The notes: generated from the sequence alone by a model not told the origin. Positions 10,530 through 17,540 are shown, numbered from the stretch's first letter. The stretch: 20,802 nucleotides of DNA from a virus (IMGVR_UViG_3300032006_001551:1-20802); one strand, 5' to 3'. Program-made: numbers and translations.

Positions 10530-10724
10530 CTTAGGCTCATTGACCGCTTGTTAAGCTCGTGTGTGTGCGTGTGCGTGGGGGATTGTAAGGAGATGAGTTA
10601 GCTCAGGGCTCTCATGAGCGTGTATCACGCAGGGCAACACACCAGACAGACTGTTGCCAGATTGACAATCCTCCCAATTGCCAGCTTTTCTCGCGTTTCC
10701 CGTCCTCCCAGCCCAGCGTAATGC

Positions 10725-10753
10725 TAAAGATTACTCTTGTCTAGTCCGATGAA
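10725..10753 (+). promoter_or_regulatory. Sigma-28-type promoter P1
   Basis: TAAAG (10725-10729) and CCGATGAA (10746-10753) are separated by 16 nt. This matches the FliA/SigD consensus (TAAAGTTT-N11-GCCGATAA, SigD spacing allowing 1-2 nt variation), with GC before TAAAG. It lies 47 nt before the ATG of the first plus-strand gene. Four further copies with the same 16-nt spacing are listed below. Confidence 0.65.
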
Positions 10754-10799
10754 TGGGTGAGCAGTGGGATAACCTCGCTGCATTACTAGGAGGATTGTG

Positions 10800-10997
10800 A
10801 TGTTCTACGATACCCTGATTGCATTCTTGCCGGAGATTTGTGCTTGGGTGACCGGTGGATTCTTGGGTTCGTCGTTGATGTACATCTATATGGATGTGAA
10901 GCTTGTGGAAGCTAGACGACACCTCTCAACACTGGATCGCATGTACAATGAACTGAAGACAGGCTACCTAAGGGTGCAAAAGAACCAACAGAACTGA
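10800..10997 (+). CDS. Small membrane protein (65 aa)
   Basis: The start is an ATG at 10800, after AGGAGG and a 6-nt spacer that contains a GTG. The 65-residue protein has a hydrophobic N-terminal half (FYDTLIAFLPEICAWVTGGFLGSSLMYIYM) with one long or two short membrane spans, followed by a charged helical tail (DVKLVEARRHLSTLDRMYNELKTGYLRVQ). No conserved domain is recognised. It is the only gene of its transcription unit: promoter P1 precedes it and a perfect terminator ends it. Such lone small membrane proteins in phages often interfere with host processes or superinfection; that is only a possibility here. Confidence 0.7.
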   Translation: MFYDTLIAFLPEICAWVTGGFLGSSLMYIYMDVKLVEARRHLSTLDRMYNELKTGYLRVQKNQQN

Positions 10998-11002
10998 CCA
11001 AT

Positions 11003-11047
11003 AAAAGGGTGATTAGCGTGCAATTGCATGCTTTTCACCCTTTTTTT
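11003..11047 (+). terminator. Intrinsic terminator after the 65-aa membrane protein
   Basis: AAAAGGGTGA (11003-11012) pairs with TCACCCTTTT (11035-11044), with a self-complementary TGCAATTGCA in the loop, and runs into seven T residues (11041-11047). Confidence 0.85.
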
Positions 11048-11059
11048 ATGCGCTGTGGG

Positions 11060-11088
11060 TAAAGTTTGTCCCTTCTCGTTCCGATGAA
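11060..11088 (+). promoter_or_regulatory. Sigma-28-type promoter P2
   Basis: TAAAGTTT (11060-11067), with CCGATGAA at 11081-11088, and 16 nt between TAAAG and CCGAT. This is the best match to the FliA -35 (TAAAGTTT complete). It begins 12 nt after the T-tract of the previous terminator. It drives the coiled-coil gene 44 nt downstream. Confidence 0.7.
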
Positions 11089-11131
11089 GGGGTAGAACGA
11101 ACGCTGTTTATGTCTTTTTGAAAGGGATGAC

Positions 11132-11602
11132 ATGGATTTTTTGGCAATGTTTAGTTTGGAACAAGTCCAAGGCATGCTCTCAGTTGTTGTCATGCTTGGC
11201 CTGTTCTGCGGCGTCTGGAAGCTGTTCAACATGGCTGTTGAGCGACTCGATGAGTGGTTCTTCAACCGACCTTATGCTCGCACTCAGATGACCAAAGCTC
11301 TGGCTGGTGATCGACAGCTACTCGCAAATGCTAAGGCAGAGAACGAGAAGCTGAAGAAAGCCCTAAAGAACAAGGTCGACAAGAACGAGTATAATCAGCA
11401 GAAGGATGCCAAAGCGCGGGCACAAGCAAAGGTGACACACTTAGAAAAGGATGTCAAAGGGCTAGAGTCCAAGCTAAGGAGCGCTGAGGAGGAGAACTAC
11501 AGGCTGAAGACTCAGCTTGACGTTCTCCACGGTAGTTCTTACCGACCTCAAACTGTTCACAGTAGCCAGCGTGCCTCAAGTGGGGGCATTCAAAGCTTCT
11601 AG
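11132..11602 (+). CDS. Membrane-anchored coiled-coil protein (156 aa)
   Basis: The start is an ATG at 11132 after AAAGGGATGAC. The 156 residues begin with a hydrophobic segment (about 11-36, VQGMLSVVVMLGLFCGVWKLF) and continue with a long charged helix (about 55-135), rich in Lys, Glu, Ala and Gln with heptad-like spacing of Leu, ending with a short Ser/Gln/His tail. The topology is single-pass with a cytosolic coiled coil. No enzymatic motif is present. It is the sole gene of a P2 unit. Candidate roles are membrane-localised inhibition of a host complex or organisation of phage assembly at the membrane. The family is not recognised. Confidence 0.75.
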   Translation: MDFLAMFSLEQVQGMLSVVVMLGLFCGVWKLFNMAVERLDEWFFNRPYARTQMTKALAGDRQLLANAKAENEKLKKALKNKVDKNEYNQQKDAKARAQAKVTHLEKDVKGLESKLRSAEEENYRLKTQLDVLHGSSYRPQTVHSSQRASSGGIQSF

Positions 11603-11620
11603 GACTGTGAGTGTCGGTGG

Positions 11621-11654
11621 AAAAGCCCGCTGACCTCGGTTGGCGGGCTTTTTT
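11621..11654 (+). terminator. Intrinsic terminator after the coiled-coil gene
   Basis: AAAAGCCCGC (11621-11630) and GCGGGC (11643-11648), followed by six T residues, pair perfectly around a 12-nt loop. Confidence 0.85.
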
Positions 11655-11708
11655 CGTTAACAAACAAAGAACAGGGGGGTCACACCCTTACCTTCAAGGA
11701 GGTACGCA

Positions 11709-11918
11709 ATGTTTACATTGTGTCTGGCTGCTTCTGCGGCACTGTTCTTCTCCCTCTCGCTGTACTTCGAACAGAAGTGCAGGCGACTAACTCGGGAGCT
11801 GGAGTCCGCCTGTCACAGGGCGGTAGTCTGGCAACGGAGTATGGTCGCAGCGAGACGGGGGAAGGATCTGCCGTACAGGTTGACCCAAGAGGTCATCGAG
11901 AAGATAGCCAAGGAGTGA
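11709..11918 (+). CDS. Small membrane protein (69 aa)
   Basis: The start is an ATG at 11709 after AAGGAGG and a 6-nt spacer. The first 19 residues (FTLCLAASAALFFSLSLYF) are hydrophobic, then a charged region (EQKCRRLTRELESACHRAVVWQRSMVAARRGKD) with two Cys follows and an acidic end with EKIAKE. It could be a single-span membrane protein; an uncleaved signal anchor is likely because no cleavage site is evident. No sigma-28-type promoter lies in the 55 nt upstream, unlike the neighbouring units, so it may depend on read-through of the preceding terminator or on an unrecognised promoter. Function unknown. Confidence 0.7.
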   Translation: MFTLCLAASAALFFSLSLYFEQKCRRLTRELESACHRAVVWQRSMVAARRGKDLPYRLTQEVIEKIAKE

Positions 11919-11922
11919 CCCG

Positions 11923-11957
11923 AAGGCCTGCCAGCTTATGCTGGTGGGCCTTTTTTT
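11923..11957 (+). terminator. Intrinsic terminator after the 69-aa gene
   Basis: Stem AAGGCC plus GCCAGC pairs with GCTGG plus GGCC (11923-11950) with a TTAT loop and one internal mismatch, followed by seven T residues (11951-11957). Confidence 0.8.
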
Positions 11958-11969
11958 ATGCACGCACGC

Positions 11970-11998
11970 TAAAGAAGTGGCGTGGTTAGCCCGATGTA
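11970..11998 (+). promoter_or_regulatory. Sigma-28-type promoter P3
   Basis: TAAAG (11970-11974), 16 nt, CCGATGTA (11991-11998). It begins 12 nt after the terminator T-tract, in the same geometry as P2, and precedes the 132-residue gene by 52 nt. Confidence 0.65.
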
Positions 11999-12050
11999 CT
12001 TGTAACGCGGGGCATTGAGACCCTGCAAGACAATAGGAGAATGTTTGATT

Positions 12051-12449
12051 ATGGCTATGCACCTAATCGTGTACGTTGTCGAGAAGGCTGGGTATGACCC
12101 CATCCAAAAGTGCAAGATGACCATCGAGGGTGACTTCGTCGGCGCCAAGTGCTTGGTGAGGCGGTCACTCGGGTACGCCTTGAACACAACAGACATCGAC
12201 CTCGAAAACACAATCGAACGGTTCTTTGAACACAACATGACTCTCACAGAACTCAGGTCAATGCAACAAGCATGCCATGAGATCTCAGAGTCAGTTGAAG
12301 CGGAGGCTGTAAGCGCCTTTGAGAGAATCAAGACACTCGAAAGGGTGTTTGAAAATCGGCTGAACAAGATCAGGGAAAGGAGTGGCACTGCGGCCTTGTC
12401 GCGTGCCACGACAAGACTTTCCACGGATGACCAGCCGGAGAGCTTCTGA
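12051..12449 (+). CDS. Hypothetical protein (132 aa), predicted soluble
   Basis: The ATG at 12051 is chosen over an upstream in-frame start at 12015 because promoter P3 would place that start too close to the transcription start and it lacks a ribosome binding site; AGGAGA lies 11 nt before 12051. The product has a beta-strand-like N-terminus (HLIVYVVEKAGYD), KCKMTIEGDFVGAKCL, then long helices (about 60-120) with FERIKTLERVFENRLNKIRERS. There are three Cys and no membrane segment. The fold resembles nothing I recognise. It is the only gene of the P3 unit and ends before a strong terminator. Function unknown. Confidence 0.7.
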   Translation: MAMHLIVYVVEKAGYDPIQKCKMTIEGDFVGAKCLVRRSLGYALNTTDIDLENTIERFFEHNMTLTELRSMQQACHEISESVEAEAVSAFERIKTLERVFENRLNKIRERSGTAALSRATTRLSTDDQPESF

Positions 12450-12480
12450 GGGCCTATCAGGGGCCTTCAAAGCCCTCCTG

Positions 12481-12523
12481 AGACCCAGATGGTGGTGCAA
12501 TGCCACTGTCTGGGTCTTTTTTT
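12481..12523 (+). terminator. Intrinsic terminator after the 132-aa gene
   Basis: AGACCCAGA (12481-12489) pairs with TCTGGGTCT (12509-12517), with an internal hairpin of TGGTG and CCAC, followed by a run of T residues to 12523. Confidence 0.85.
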
Positions 12524-12578
12524 ATGGGCTATGAGGCGTGCGAAGCATGCTCTGAAGGCACTGAGGGGGTAATTCAGA

Positions 12579-12611
12579 GCTAAAAATACACTCTTGAAGT
12601 CTATTTTTGGC
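12579..12611. repeat. 10-bp hairpin between terminator and promoter P4
   Basis: GCTAAAAATA (12579-12588) pairs with TATTTTTGGC (12602-12611), with one G.U pair, around a 13-nt loop. It lies in the 97-nt spacer that distinguishes this cassette from the compact ones. No T-tract follows, so it is not an ordinary terminator; it could be an operator. Confidence 0.4.
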
Positions 12612-12620
12612 ACATACGGC

Positions 12621-12649
12621 TAAAGATCTCGTCTGCATGGACCGATAAA
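12621..12649 (+). promoter_or_regulatory. Sigma-28-type promoter P4
   Basis: TAAAG (12621-12625), 16 nt, CCGATAAAG (12642-12650). The -10 box CCGATAA is a full match to the FliA consensus. It precedes the 125-residue gene by 51 nt. Confidence 0.7.
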
Positions 12650-12700
12650 GAGTGTAGATGGGAACGATGGATTCCCTAGACCTGTTTGGAGGACAAGAAG

Positions 12701-13078
12701 ATGCCACGTTTTGACAATCTGCCCGTTGGAGACGACGGGGGACCAGACAAGCCAGACGACACCAACCCCCCGAGCGATAGCTTAGGGGACACGGACGAAT
12801 GGCTCAAGAGTCTGTTCGCGGAGATGTCGGACGAAGATATCGACAGAATGACTCCAACCATGACTGCTGAGGAGGAGCTGAATAAGGCTGAGGTTCTTTA
12901 CGAGAAGGGTTTTTTGACCGAGTTTGAACTCAATCAGAAGAAGGATGTTATCGCGAAGGTGATAAAGCTTCGCGAGATGAAATACATCGACGATGATGAG
13001 TACCAACACGCGATACACAACAACGGATTCTTCCGTGCCTGTGAAATACCCAAGCCGGAGGAACTGAGGCGGAAATAG
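12701..13078 (+). CDS. Acidic hypothetical protein (125 aa)
   Basis: The start is an ATG at 12701, after GGAGG and ACAAGAAG. The first 45 residues are rich in Asp, Pro and Gly and look disordered (FDNLPVGDDGGPDKPDDTNPPSDS), followed by helices with EWLKSLFAEMSDEDIDRMTPTMTAEEELNKAEVLYEKG and a C-terminal region (DDDEYQHAIHNNGFF). The pI will be very low. Acidic DNA-mimic or protein-inhibitor roles are common for such phage proteins, but there is no motif to say so here. It is the only gene of the P4 unit, ended by a perfect 13-bp terminator. Confidence 0.7.
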   Translation: MPRFDNLPVGDDGGPDKPDDTNPPSDSLGDTDEWLKSLFAEMSDEDIDRMTPTMTAEEELNKAEVLYEKGFLTEFELNQKKDVIAKVIKLREMKYIDDDEYQHAIHNNGFFRACEIPKPEELRRK

Positions 13079-13100
13079 CCACTCCAAGGCGACCGAAAGA

Positions 13101-13139
13101 GGCGTTGCATAAGGCAATACTTATGCAACGCCTTTTTTT
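13101..13139 (+). terminator. Strong intrinsic terminator after the acidic gene
   Basis: GGCGTTGCATAAG and CTTATGCAACGCC form a perfect 13-bp stem around a 6-nt loop (13101-13132), followed by seven T residues (13133-13139). Confidence 0.9.
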
Positions 13140-13152
13140 ATGCGCTGACGGC

Positions 13153-13181
13153 TAAAGTTCCGGGCCACAAGGCCCGATGAA
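13153..13181 (+). promoter_or_regulatory. Sigma-28-type promoter P5
   Basis: TAAAG (13153-13157), 16 nt, CCGATGAA (13174-13181), followed by GGGGTAGAA as in P2. It begins 13 nt after the terminator T-tract. It drives the next two genes. Confidence 0.7.
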
Positions 13182-13241
13182 GGGGTAGAAGGACGGCCAC
13201 TGTGGCTGTCCATAACCGGTCTAGACAGAAAGGTATTTCAG

Positions 13242-13787
13242 TTGTCAGACCAAACTTTGCATGAGCTGGCTTTGTCATTGGCTGACCTCGTTAGCAATCA
13301 CATCGTTGAGTTCCTCGATGAGGAGCGGTACTTCGGTGTTGATGACGCGGATGTTATCAATGAACTGTCGGCAATTGCTCGCGGTGCTGTGTCCGACCGC
13401 TTCAACGAGTTGTTGGACGACCCCGAGTCGGGGTGGACGCAGCAGCTTGTCAACTTGCCGCTCGGAGAGGGCTGTCATGCCCTCCAGAGCGTCAGGCATG
13501 TTGGCAACAAGCCTATCCTCAACCAGCCAAAACTCACTGCCCCCCAGAACGGGGGAAAGAAACGTGGCCGGAGGAGGAGACGCAGGAAAGGGGGTGGCGG
13601 GAGGCAACAGAAGCTTCCCGACATTCCTGATCCGTCGTTGGATGCGGCGGACGAAGACAATTACCCCGGAGGGCCATTTTATGCGTCCGAAGGGGAGGAT
13701 CTCTCCGCTAGAGATCGTGCGTGGCTGGCAAACCAGCGAGCGGACGACGAATTCTGGAGAGACCAGTTAAACGACGACTCTTTCTGA
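13242..13787 (+). CDS. Hypothetical protein with a polyarginine patch (181 aa)
   Basis: The frame has no in-frame ATG near its start; a TTG at 13242 preceded by GAAAGG at 8 nt is the best start. Residues 1-70 are acidic and helical (LHELALSLADLVSNHIVEFLDEERYFGVDDADVINELSAIARGAV). Residues about 105-125 hold a highly basic Gly/Lys/Arg patch (KKRGRRRRRRKGGGG). The C-terminus is acidic with SARDRAWLANQRADDEFWRDQ. The alternation of acidic and basic blocks suggests a nucleic-acid-binding or scaffolding adapter. It is the first gene of the P5 unit. No domain is recognised. Confidence 0.65.
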   Translation: MSDQTLHELALSLADLVSNHIVEFLDEERYFGVDDADVINELSAIARGAVSDRFNELLDDPESGWTQQLVNLPLGEGCHALQSVRHVGNKPILNQPKLTAPQNGGKKRGRRRRRRKGGGGRQQKLPDIPDPSLDAADEDNYPGGPFYASEGEDLSARDRAWLANQRADDEFWRDQLNDDSF

Positions 13788-13805
13788 GTCGAAAAGGAGG
13801 ATGAG

Positions 13806-14015
13806 ATGTTGAAGTTTTTCGCTCTTGCTGCCGTATCGGTGGCACTACCGATGTGTGGATGCTCTGGCACCCACAACCTTCGACATGAGGAGGCGACTCC
13901 TCGAAGTGATGTGGCCGACCTTGACAAGGTCATCGACGACCGCATCGAAATGTACATCCTACGGGATGTAAACCCCTCTGTGACGTGGGGGAGCGAGGCT
14001 GAGTCAACAGACTGA
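13806..14015 (+). CDS. Small secreted or lipoprotein-like protein (69 aa)
   Basis: The start is an ATG at 13806 after AGGAGG (5 nt away). The product begins with a signal-like segment MLKFFALAAVSVALPMCGCSG. Cys17 and Cys19 sit where a lipobox Cys would be, but the -3 to -1 residues do not fit a classical lipobox, so either an unusual lipoprotein or a cleaved secreted peptide. The mature region is acidic (DVADLDKVIDDRIEMYILRDVNPSV). It follows the 181-residue gene by 18 nt and is the second gene of the P5 unit. An o-spanin-like role is possible but unsupported. Confidence 0.6.
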   Translation: MLKFFALAAVSVALPMCGCSGTHNLRHEEATPRSDVADLDKVIDDRIEMYILRDVNPSVTWGSEAESTD

Positions 14016-14121: not shown

Positions 14122-14152
14122 GAGGGGGCCACGTACGGCCCTCTCTTTTTTT
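14122..14152 (+). terminator. Terminator after the tRNA-like element
   Basis: GAGGGGGCC (14122-14130) and GGCCCTC (14137-14143) form a stem with a bulge, followed by CTTTTTTT-like sequence to 14152. It separates the tRNA-like element from the DUF932-like gene. Confidence 0.7.
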
Positions 14153-14175: not shown

Positions 14176-15264
14176 ATGAAGCACGGTAATTCTGGCACGA
14201 TAGACCGGTTGGTTGAACGAGTGCAGGCGGAGAACATCCGCAAGCACGACTTCATAAGCCCAACCGGTGTAATGACTGCCTCAGATGTGTACGGAGAGCC
14301 AAGGCTCAACTTCAGGGTGAACAGGGGGTCCGATGAGACAACCTCGTTCAATCTGGAGCAGGTGGCCCACGAAAACCTCTCCCAGCTCTGTGGCATCGAC
14401 ATGCGGTACTACCGCAAGTTGCTGGAACTGCCATCGAAGGAACTCTGGGCAACCAATGTAAACCAGTGGTTGCCGGGGGTGTCGAACCGAACGGTTCGCA
14501 CCTTCGATGGAGAGTACGAGGACGACCTCGGGATGAGGTCGACGGGCAGTGTTCGCTGTTTGATGAGCGACCGATACTGGTGTCTCGACAACAGCGACCT
14601 GCTCGCAGCACTGATCCCTCAGTTTGAGAAGAGGGAACTGACAGTGCTGACAAGCAACCTCAGCGAGAGGCACATGGTCATCAAGGCGGTTTCGCCCAAG
14701 ATGATCGCAGAGGTGCCTCACGTTGGGGATCGCGTGCAAGGCGGGATCGCAGTCGGTAACTCCGAAGTGGGCCAAGGCTCGCTGTGGATCACCGAGTACG
14801 ACTATGTCCTGTCCTGCACCAACGGGATGGTTGGAGAAAAGGAGAGAAAGTACACGCACCGATCCGGCAAGTCCGGAGAGGATGACAGCAACTTCTCCTC
14901 CTACTCCAGCGAGACCAAGCGGAAGACCAACGAGGCCTTCTGGGCTCAAATCGCGGAAGACATCGACCGCTGCTTCGACGAGGAGCGGTTCGCCGGGAGG
15001 GTGAGCAACTACGGAGACGCTGCCGCAGACGAGGTTCACGAGCATCAAGAAGCTCGCGTGATATCCACTGTCTGTAGCGAATCAGGCGTCCCCAAGGATG
15101 ACTGGGACAAGGTTCTCCGGCACTACCACAGGGGTGGGCAGGAGAATCGGTGGGGAGTGGCCCAAGCGGTCACCCGCTACGCCCAAGACGTCGAAGACTT
15201 CGATCTTGCGACCTCGCTGGAATCAGCTGGCCGCAAGGTTATGGACGGAGGCTTGTACAGATGA
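14176..15264 (+). CDS. DUF932-like phage/plasmid protein (362 aa)
   Basis: The start is the ATG at 14176, after AAAGGGAACCA; an upstream in-frame start at 14155 is within the terminator region. The 362-residue protein shows the pattern of the DUF932 family (phage/plasmid-like proteins): VRCLMSDRYWCLDNSDLLAAL, a strand region, GDRVQGGIAVGNSEVGQGSLWI, and CTNGMVGEKERKYTHRSG. The C-terminal third (about 270-362) is helical and has HHRGGQENRWG-like sequence. The family is common in phages and plasmids and its activity is not well defined; DNA-recombination roles have been suggested. No sigma-28-type promoter precedes it. It is followed by an overlapping zinc-ribbon gene (ATGA). The gene is the largest of the plus-strand block. 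Confidence 0.7.
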   Translation: MKHGNSGTIDRLVERVQAENIRKHDFISPTGVMTASDVYGEPRLNFRVNRGSDETTSFNLEQVAHENLSQLCGIDMRYYRKLLELPSKELWATNVNQWLPGVSNRTVRTFDGEYEDDLGMRSTGSVRCLMSDRYWCLDNSDLLAALIPQFEKRELTVLTSNLSERHMVIKAVSPKMIAEVPHVGDRVQGGIAVGNSEVGQGSLWITEYDYVLSCTNGMVGEKERKYTHRSGKSGEDDSNFSSYSSETKRKTNEAFWAQIAEDIDRCFDEERFAGRVSNYGDAAADEVHEHQEARVISTVCSESGVPKDDWDKVLRHYHRGGQENRWGVAQAVTRYAQDVEDFDLATSLESAGRKVMDGGLYR

Positions 15265-17217: not shown

Positions 17218-17350
17218 GGAGTTCCTCCGCTCTTCTGGACACAACGGTAGACAGGCTGCCGTCTAAGGCAGACATCCTGATTGCAGCAATCCGCTTGCGG
17301 TGCAATGCGGAGTTACGTTCCGCTTGGAGCAGTGGATCGAGACTTTCCAC
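17144..17350 (-). CDS. Possible overlapping small protein (68 aa)
   Basis: A GTG at 17350 has an ideal GAGGAG 7 nt upstream and opens a 68-residue frame, charged and mostly helical (LLQAERNSALHRKRIAAIRMSALDG, then RRAEELREELVRQAGGEMGRDQ). It overlaps the 75-residue gene by 38 nt and the 139-residue gene by 74 nt in another frame. The 5' part is the only open frame for about 95 nt and has codon pattern and helix propensity like a real protein. The last third runs through the clearly coding neighbour. It may be a real coupled gene or a fragment that is joined by frameshift to the next gene. Medium-low confidence. Confidence 0.45.
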   Translation of the reverse strand: MESLDPLLQAERNSALHRKRIAAIRMSALDGSLSTVVSRRAEELREELVRQAGGEMGRDQDAGGAGQG

Positions 17351-17540
17351 TACCGCTCTCCTCAACGATACGGTGTCCCAGAGCCTCGGCCTGAGAAACC
17401 ATGTTCTTGGCTTCCTGATGCTCGTAGCGGATGCACTCAACCAAGGCGTTGAAGCCGTTGGCCGCCTGTTGCGCGCCGTTCAGGGCGTGCATCTTCATCA
17501 TCGCGTAATCGTTGGCGGCAAGTTCGACAGAATCGGGCAT
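17313..17540 (-). CDS. Small helical hypothetical protein (75 aa)
   Basis: The start is an ATG at 17540, with AAGGA 9 nt before it, just after the Cys-rich peptide. The 75-residue protein is helical, with two predicted helices (DSVELAANDYAMMKMHALNGAQQAANGFNALVECIRYEHQEAKNMVSQAEALG) and a Ser/Gly/Lys-rich tail (RIVEESGSGKSRSTAPSGT). There are no membrane or metal-binding motifs. It may be a small oligomerising protein. Neighbours are the secreted protease upstream and possible membrane proteins downstream. Function unknown. Confidence 0.65.
   Translation of the reverse strand: MPDSVELAANDYAMMKMHALNGAQQAANGFNALVECIRYEHQEAKNMVSQAEALGHRIVEESGSGKSRSTAPSGT

Follow-up and report, generated by a model that had tools for sequence, protein, structure and literature searches.

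Sigma-28-type promoters ahead of exchangeable accessory genes in a marine phage, and their probable use of a host FliA/WhiG-type sigma factor

Introduction

Phages are usually thought to use the housekeeping sigma factor of their host or to bring a factor of their own. A block of small accessory genes in the marine phage record IMGVR_UViG_3300032006_001551:1-20802 (20,802 nucleotides (nt); this whole stretch is called the window below) raises the question of which sigma factor reads it. An initial annotation had noted the pattern TAAAG-N16-CCGAT five times in this block, had assigned it to the FliA/SigD/WhiG promoter class, and had left the motility sigma factor of the host and a phage-encoded sigma-28-like factor as alternatives. 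Judged from sequence, these sites are very likely sigma-28-class promoters, and we regard as probable the overall explanation that a FliA/WhiG-type sigma factor of the host reads, through them, a row of phage accessory genes arranged as cassettes.

Results

All five copies of TAAAG-N16-CCGAT were recovered where they had been annotated (10725, 11060, 11970, 12621 and 13153), all on the plus strand and all intergenic. Their chance expectation had been put at 0.04; the rarity of the pattern held, the figure now being 0.09 with spacings of 14-18 allowed, and none of 100 shuffles reached five copies. Because the pattern had been picked post hoc, we ran a search without prior choice over all dyads of two 5-mers with a gap of 8-21 in the window, and TAAAG-16-CCGAT was the sole dyad with five copies on one strand. 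Each site precedes a gene at close to the claimed 44-61 nt, about 46-63 nt separating the end of CCGAT from the likely start codon (10797/10800, 11132, 12051, 12701 and 13242).

The FliA consensus of Escherichia coli is TAAAGTTT-n11-GCCGATAA (PMC2859248); the consensus of 42 phage sites, CTAAAGTTT-N12-GCCGATAA, equals the sigma-28 consensus save for one extra spacer base, and the tar and flxA promoters have N15 between TAAAG and CCGAT (PMC4183435). Three bases of the -35 box (T, A and A) and three of the -10 box (C, G and A) are the same at every one of the 42 sites, and the second position of the -35 box is A in 31 and C in 11. TAAAG and CCGAT are present at all five window sites; the base after CCGAT is A in 35/42 sites overall and in 1/5 in the window. 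A purine occupies the tenth position 3' of CCGAT in 39 of the 42 sites, and in 34 of them it is A; TAAAG accordingly falls at -35, and transcription would start about 10 nt past CCGAT. The class assignment stands as to the boxes and is well supported by relatives and by an independent array in phage G015 (below); the spacer departs from the E. coli consensus.

The window's terminase finds 77 viral loci, and seven related contigs have arrays in the corresponding place, flanked by the gene of the trypsin-like protease on one side and by the genes around window 15.5-19 kb on the other (five sites in G003, five in L127, seven in L144, five to six in G001, four to five in G002, four in L113 and four in L007). 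The aligned clade, checked for loss of the motif, was found to conserve it: identity at orthologous sites is 0.90 for TAAAG and 0.95 for CCGAT, as compared with 0.61 for the spacer, 0.52 upstream and 0.52 in the leader. All four sites of L007 read TCAAG-N16-ACGATAACAGT, with ACGAT at the -10 box. Two contigs with about 64% terminase identity (L012 and L034) have no site upstream of the terminase, and these contigs may not reach the homologous block. Operators bound by a regulator of the phage or of the host (stoperator-like elements rather than core promoters) would likewise be repeated, one-directional and intergenic and could co-vary between phages, as these sites do. However, the boxes fall at -35 and -10 relative to the conserved purine, the motif is non-palindromic, and most sites come after a transcription stop and ahead of a gene that has no further promoter; we consider operators decidedly improbable. 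Sigma-70 promoters for the block were also rejected, a scan having given a single weak match, fewer than shuffled sequences give on average.

The discriminator, nine bases from CCGAT to the predicted start, behaves differently from the leaders. Between the window (10751-10759, 11086-11094, 11996-12004 and 13179-13187) and G003 it differs at 19/36 positions, as compared with 9/172 in the leaders (discriminator versus leader, Fisher P 7e-11), and GAA(G/T)GGG occurs in the discriminator of three of the five window sites. These alignments suggest rapid or concerted evolution of the discriminator.

Most sites stand a short way behind a terminator-like T-run: sites 2, 3 and 5 lie 10-15 nt 3' of the T-run of a terminator-like hairpin, and site 4 after a T5 run, the full terminator being about 100 nt further upstream. 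A ribosome-binding site is usually present ahead of the start codon, and many leaders, not all, open with a 5' hairpin (folding z below -2 at sites 1, 3 and 5). That the motif is instead a conserved RNA structure of the leader is hardly credible: pairings of the CCCTTC/GAAGGGG type can be drawn by eye across some window sites, but they are gone in G003 without compensatory changes, and the promoter segment (-36 to +6) hardly folds (mean z -0.26, versus -1.16 for the leader proper). An RNA element or riboswitch was rejected on the same grounds, there being no Rfam match, no structure in the boxes and no compensatory pairs across the motif.

Other phages carry intergenic elements of a different kind. 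On the minus strand of the related phages L115 (11200-13850) and L118 (10700-14250), a structured repeat of about 110 nt (GGCAGC..CACCTTCACGGTGGTGCTGCTGTACGGCC..GGCCTAAGCTGACGAGTC..TCACTTCCCC; no Rfam match), and not the sigma-28-type promoter, precedes several cargo genes; in L118 a single sigma-28-like site, at 14591, heads the block, and between cargo genes there is a match to the type II hammerhead ribozyme (13747-13814, minus strand; 32.1 bits, below the cut-off of 37). A more distant phage, L106 (500-7000, minus strand), has an intergenic GC-rich repeat ending CCCTAAGTCGTTGA.

The genes behind the promoters turn over. Flanking core genes (terminase, portal, capsid and protease) are 60-78% identical between the window and G001/G002, and the window's cargo genes have no blastp match in these two; compared with G003, the gene after site 4 is only 37% alike, the other cargo genes being 90-99% identical; and in L127 the promoter of the first cargo gene is kept while a homologue of that gene is undetectable. 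Since the cargo differs while the promoters persist, the promoters are the stable part of the locus and the genes the exchanged part. Protein searches gave no function assignment for the cargo of the window block (Table 1), and defence genes were rejected as candidates, the matches being coiled-coil noise only. Elsewhere in the window, a 75-aa (amino acid) protein (17313-17540) is conserved at 92-100% identity among phages that share 50-80% identity in their other proteins.

Table 1. Predicted features of the accessory block, by window position
Feature	Coordinates	Strand	Remark
Sigma-28-type promoter 1 (CTAAAG-N16-CCGATG)	10724..10751	+	predicted start near 10760
5' leader hairpin, transcript 1	10762..10782	+	folding z -2.2
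65-aa cargo protein	10800..10997	+	hydrophobic N-terminus, no family
Terminator-like hairpin and T-run, just 5' of promoter 2	11003..11048	+	read from sequence
Sigma-28-type promoter 2 (GTAAAG-N16-CCGATG)	11059..11086	+	predicted start near 11094-11095
156-aa cargo protein	11132..11602	+	hydrophobic stretch and coiled coil; weak Rz-spanin match only
Terminator-like hairpin and T-run, 3' of 156-aa gene	11625..11657	+	read from sequence
69-aa gene	11709..11918	+	behind terminator, without own site
Terminator-like hairpin and T-run, 5' of promoter 3	11922..11958	+	predicted
Sigma-28-type promoter 3 (CTAAAG-N16-CCGATG)	11969..11996	+	predicted start near 12005
5' leader hairpin, transcript 3	12008..12028	+	folding z -2.2
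132-aa cargo protein	12051..12449	+	no family
Terminator-like hairpin and T-run, ~100 nt 5' of promoter 4	12480..12523	+	predicted
Sigma-28-type promoter 4 (CTAAAG-N16-CCGATA)	12620..12647	+	predicted start near 12656
125-aa cargo protein	12701..13078	+	weak SHOCT-like C-terminus; 37-41% between otherwise close relatives
Terminator-like hairpin and T-run, 5' of promoter 5	13103..13142	+	read from sequence
Sigma-28-type promoter 5 (CTAAAG-N16-CCGATG)	13152..13179	+	predicted start near 13188
5' leader hairpin, transcript 5	13191..13212	+	folding z -2.5
181-aa cargo protein	13242..13787	+	no family
69-aa predicted lipoprotein, downstream of promoter 5	13806..14015	+	lipobox by eye
Terminator-like hairpin, 5' of DUF932-like gene	14122..14152	+	no promoter site behind
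362-aa DUF932-like protein, phrog_1362	14176..15264	+	homologues in L118 and L115

An array of the same type stands in G015 (66.6 kb, 63% GC), which is apparently unrelated to the window phage (one weak tblastn match only): ten sites in 4 kb, all N16 with 13-19 allowed; domain searches detected no sigma factor in it. Eight low-GC contigs (L152, L153, L155, L159, L163, L165, L166 and L172) have YTMAAG-N16/17-MCGAT at places where it overlaps sigma-70 promoters, in two different registers, and most of these contigs encode gp55-like sigmas. The T4-like contigs are kept as a lead only and not as independent support, since they were selected by the pattern itself and their sites mostly overlap sigma-70 promoters.

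As to what reads the sites, a phage-encoded sigma-28-like factor was sought in the relatives and none was detected. Domain searches found no Sigma70_r2 in G000-G008, G013, G015 and G026-G028, several of which records are fragments, and no sigma region 2 in the window or in the 46-kb relative G001; both ends of the latter's contig cut through open reading frames of one strand, as if a circular map had been opened within the gene of a single giant virion protein, so we take it to be a near-complete genome. The only matches of the Sigma70_r4 type are weak and sub-threshold (13.8 bits in G001, and one in G026), both in one 139-aa protein family. A search for single-subunit polymerases (RNA_pol, T7-type) gave no match in the window or relatives, and none in the control genomes either, so that it had no positive control; a two-box motif with a free spacer is also a poor fit to the promoter of a single-subunit phage RNA polymerase, and we set this candidate aside provisionally.

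The promoters might still be real and be read by a diverged phage-encoded sigma or sigma-like factor, missed or lying outside the contigs. The co-variation of the motif within a genome (4/4 sites in L007), the altered discriminators of the window at several sites compared with G003, the weak helix-turn-helix match of the 139-aa family, and the gp55-like sigmas of T4-like phages with overlapping motifs would all suit such a factor. We think it improbable, as no region 2 was found in near-complete G001 or in G015, and gp55-like factors have no region 4 with which to recognise a -35 box. The 139-aa protein, moreover, is likelier to be lysis-related because it has a hydrophobic, transmembrane-like stretch and its gene adjoins a C92 amidase gene. 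Since no phage sigma or polymerase was found, the host holoenzyme is the most likely reader, and of the two annotated alternatives the host sigma is favoured; that the sites are read by a FliA/WhiG-type sigma of the host is likely.

Cultured relatives do not reveal the host: the terminase finds only distant ones, and portal and capsid matched no isolate phage. Terminase relatives in bacterial genomes are mostly from the Planctomycetes-Verrucomicrobia-Chlamydiae (PVC) group (Phycisphaerae, Sedimentisphaerales, Brocadiaceae, Rhodopirellula, Verrucomicrobia, the last including an isolate contig of Cerasicoccus frondis, and Lentisphaerae). A count of TAAAGTT-Nk-GCCGATA over 149 Planctomycetota genomes gave 15 sites with the spacing of the phage (k=13) and 0, 6, 5 and 3 sites at k=11, 12, 14 and 15, making k=13 the only enriched spacing (Poisson P about 4e-6 versus the mean over the other values of k; a single genome rich in repeats was excluded and some sites are orthologous). 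Neither Verrucomicrobiota nor the phylum of G014 gave such a peak. A site stands ahead of the FliA/WhiG gene in two planctomycetes, G181 and G150; in G181, where the wider locus was read, CTAAAG-N16-CCGATAA lies 69 nt 5' of fliA, behind flhB-flhA-flhF-flhG. Conserved autoregulation of planctomycete fliA was rejected, as a check of 30 fliA loci found the site at the G181 locus alone (G150 also has it). The host is probably a PVC bacterium, with Planctomycetota most likely.

The FliA/WhiG sigma of a PVC host may be tied to flagella, or it may not. A narrower form of the host-sigma explanation, compatible with it, is a developmental or stress sigma of this family with no flagellar tie. The planctomycete factor scores with WhiG and FliA models alike, several phage-spaced planctomycete sites precede non-flagellar genes (e.g., DivIC-like), and in Chlamydia, a PVC member, sigma-28 reads hctB and tsp (PMC12282069); in G181, however, the factor gene adjoins flhB-flhA-flhF-flhG, and we hold this narrower form to be unlikely, if well within reason.

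Discussion

If a host FliA/WhiG-type sigma reads the array, each site would start a short transcript with a 5' stem-loop as a rule, one or a few small accessory genes, and an intrinsic terminator at its end; composed of such promoter-gene(s)-terminator transcripts, the block would be a row of exchangeable cassettes. The holoenzyme would consist of the host core polymerase and the host sigma, and expression of the cargo would follow the activity of that sigma.

Several observations weigh against this explanation. The octamers lie 12 bases apart at all phage sites, as against 11 in E. coli, and four of the five window sites read CCGATG where relatives read CCGATA. Each site has a gene behind it, but not each gene has a site: the genes at 11709 and 14176 sit 3' of terminators yet carry no TAAAG-N16-CCGAT, and the array therefore does not serve all genes. 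Sigma domain searches would miss a very diverged factor. The planctomycete enrichment amounts to 15 sites, some orthologous and most not ahead of recognisable flagellar genes. Finally, the nearest genome match (94%, by terminase) is a contig in a deltaproteobacterial metagenome-assembled genome (MAG) that lacks the motif. This match may reflect misbinning, and the deltaproteobacterial MAG holding L127 was rejected as host, since TAAAG-N13-18-GCCGATA is missing from its genome and its phylum shows no peak in spacing.

Some phages thus seem to entrust part of their gene expression to a specialised sigma factor of the host: the array is kept despite gene swaps, and a phage with no apparent relation to this one has a similar array. 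We advance tentatively, with slightly less than even credence, the wider proposal that at least two unrelated phage lineages independently keep a modular accessory locus as part of the host FliA/WhiG regulon, on only where that sigma is active, in motile or differentiating cells. If true, the phage would read the physiological state of its host through the host's own alternative sigma, and promoter spacing would offer a sequence handle for guessing the hosts of uncultured phages.

The annotation knew of no described phage array of this kind, and none was found described in open-access full text, subscription papers and preprints being outside that scope. The nearest known systems each share part of it. 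FliA/SigD class III flagellar promoters have the same TAAAG -35 box, the same GCCGATAA -10 box and a T-rich stretch behind -35; they differ in having N15 in E. coli, where the phage sites have N16 and stand ahead of genes without known function. Phage-encoded sigma systems (T4 gp55 type, sporulation-like sigmas) likewise give a gene block a distinct promoter class, but they carry the sigma gene, and none was found in this phage family. Moron-like phage cassettes are also exchangeable single-gene units with promoter and terminator; here, in contrast, one alternative-sigma-type promoter is shared by a row of units at one fixed locus. A last likeness is flxA of E. coli, which is located in the Qin prophage. 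It too has a FliA promoter ahead of a gene without obvious flagellar function (PMC4183435), but whereas flxA is a single site in a defective prophage, the sites described here form a cassette array in free phages.

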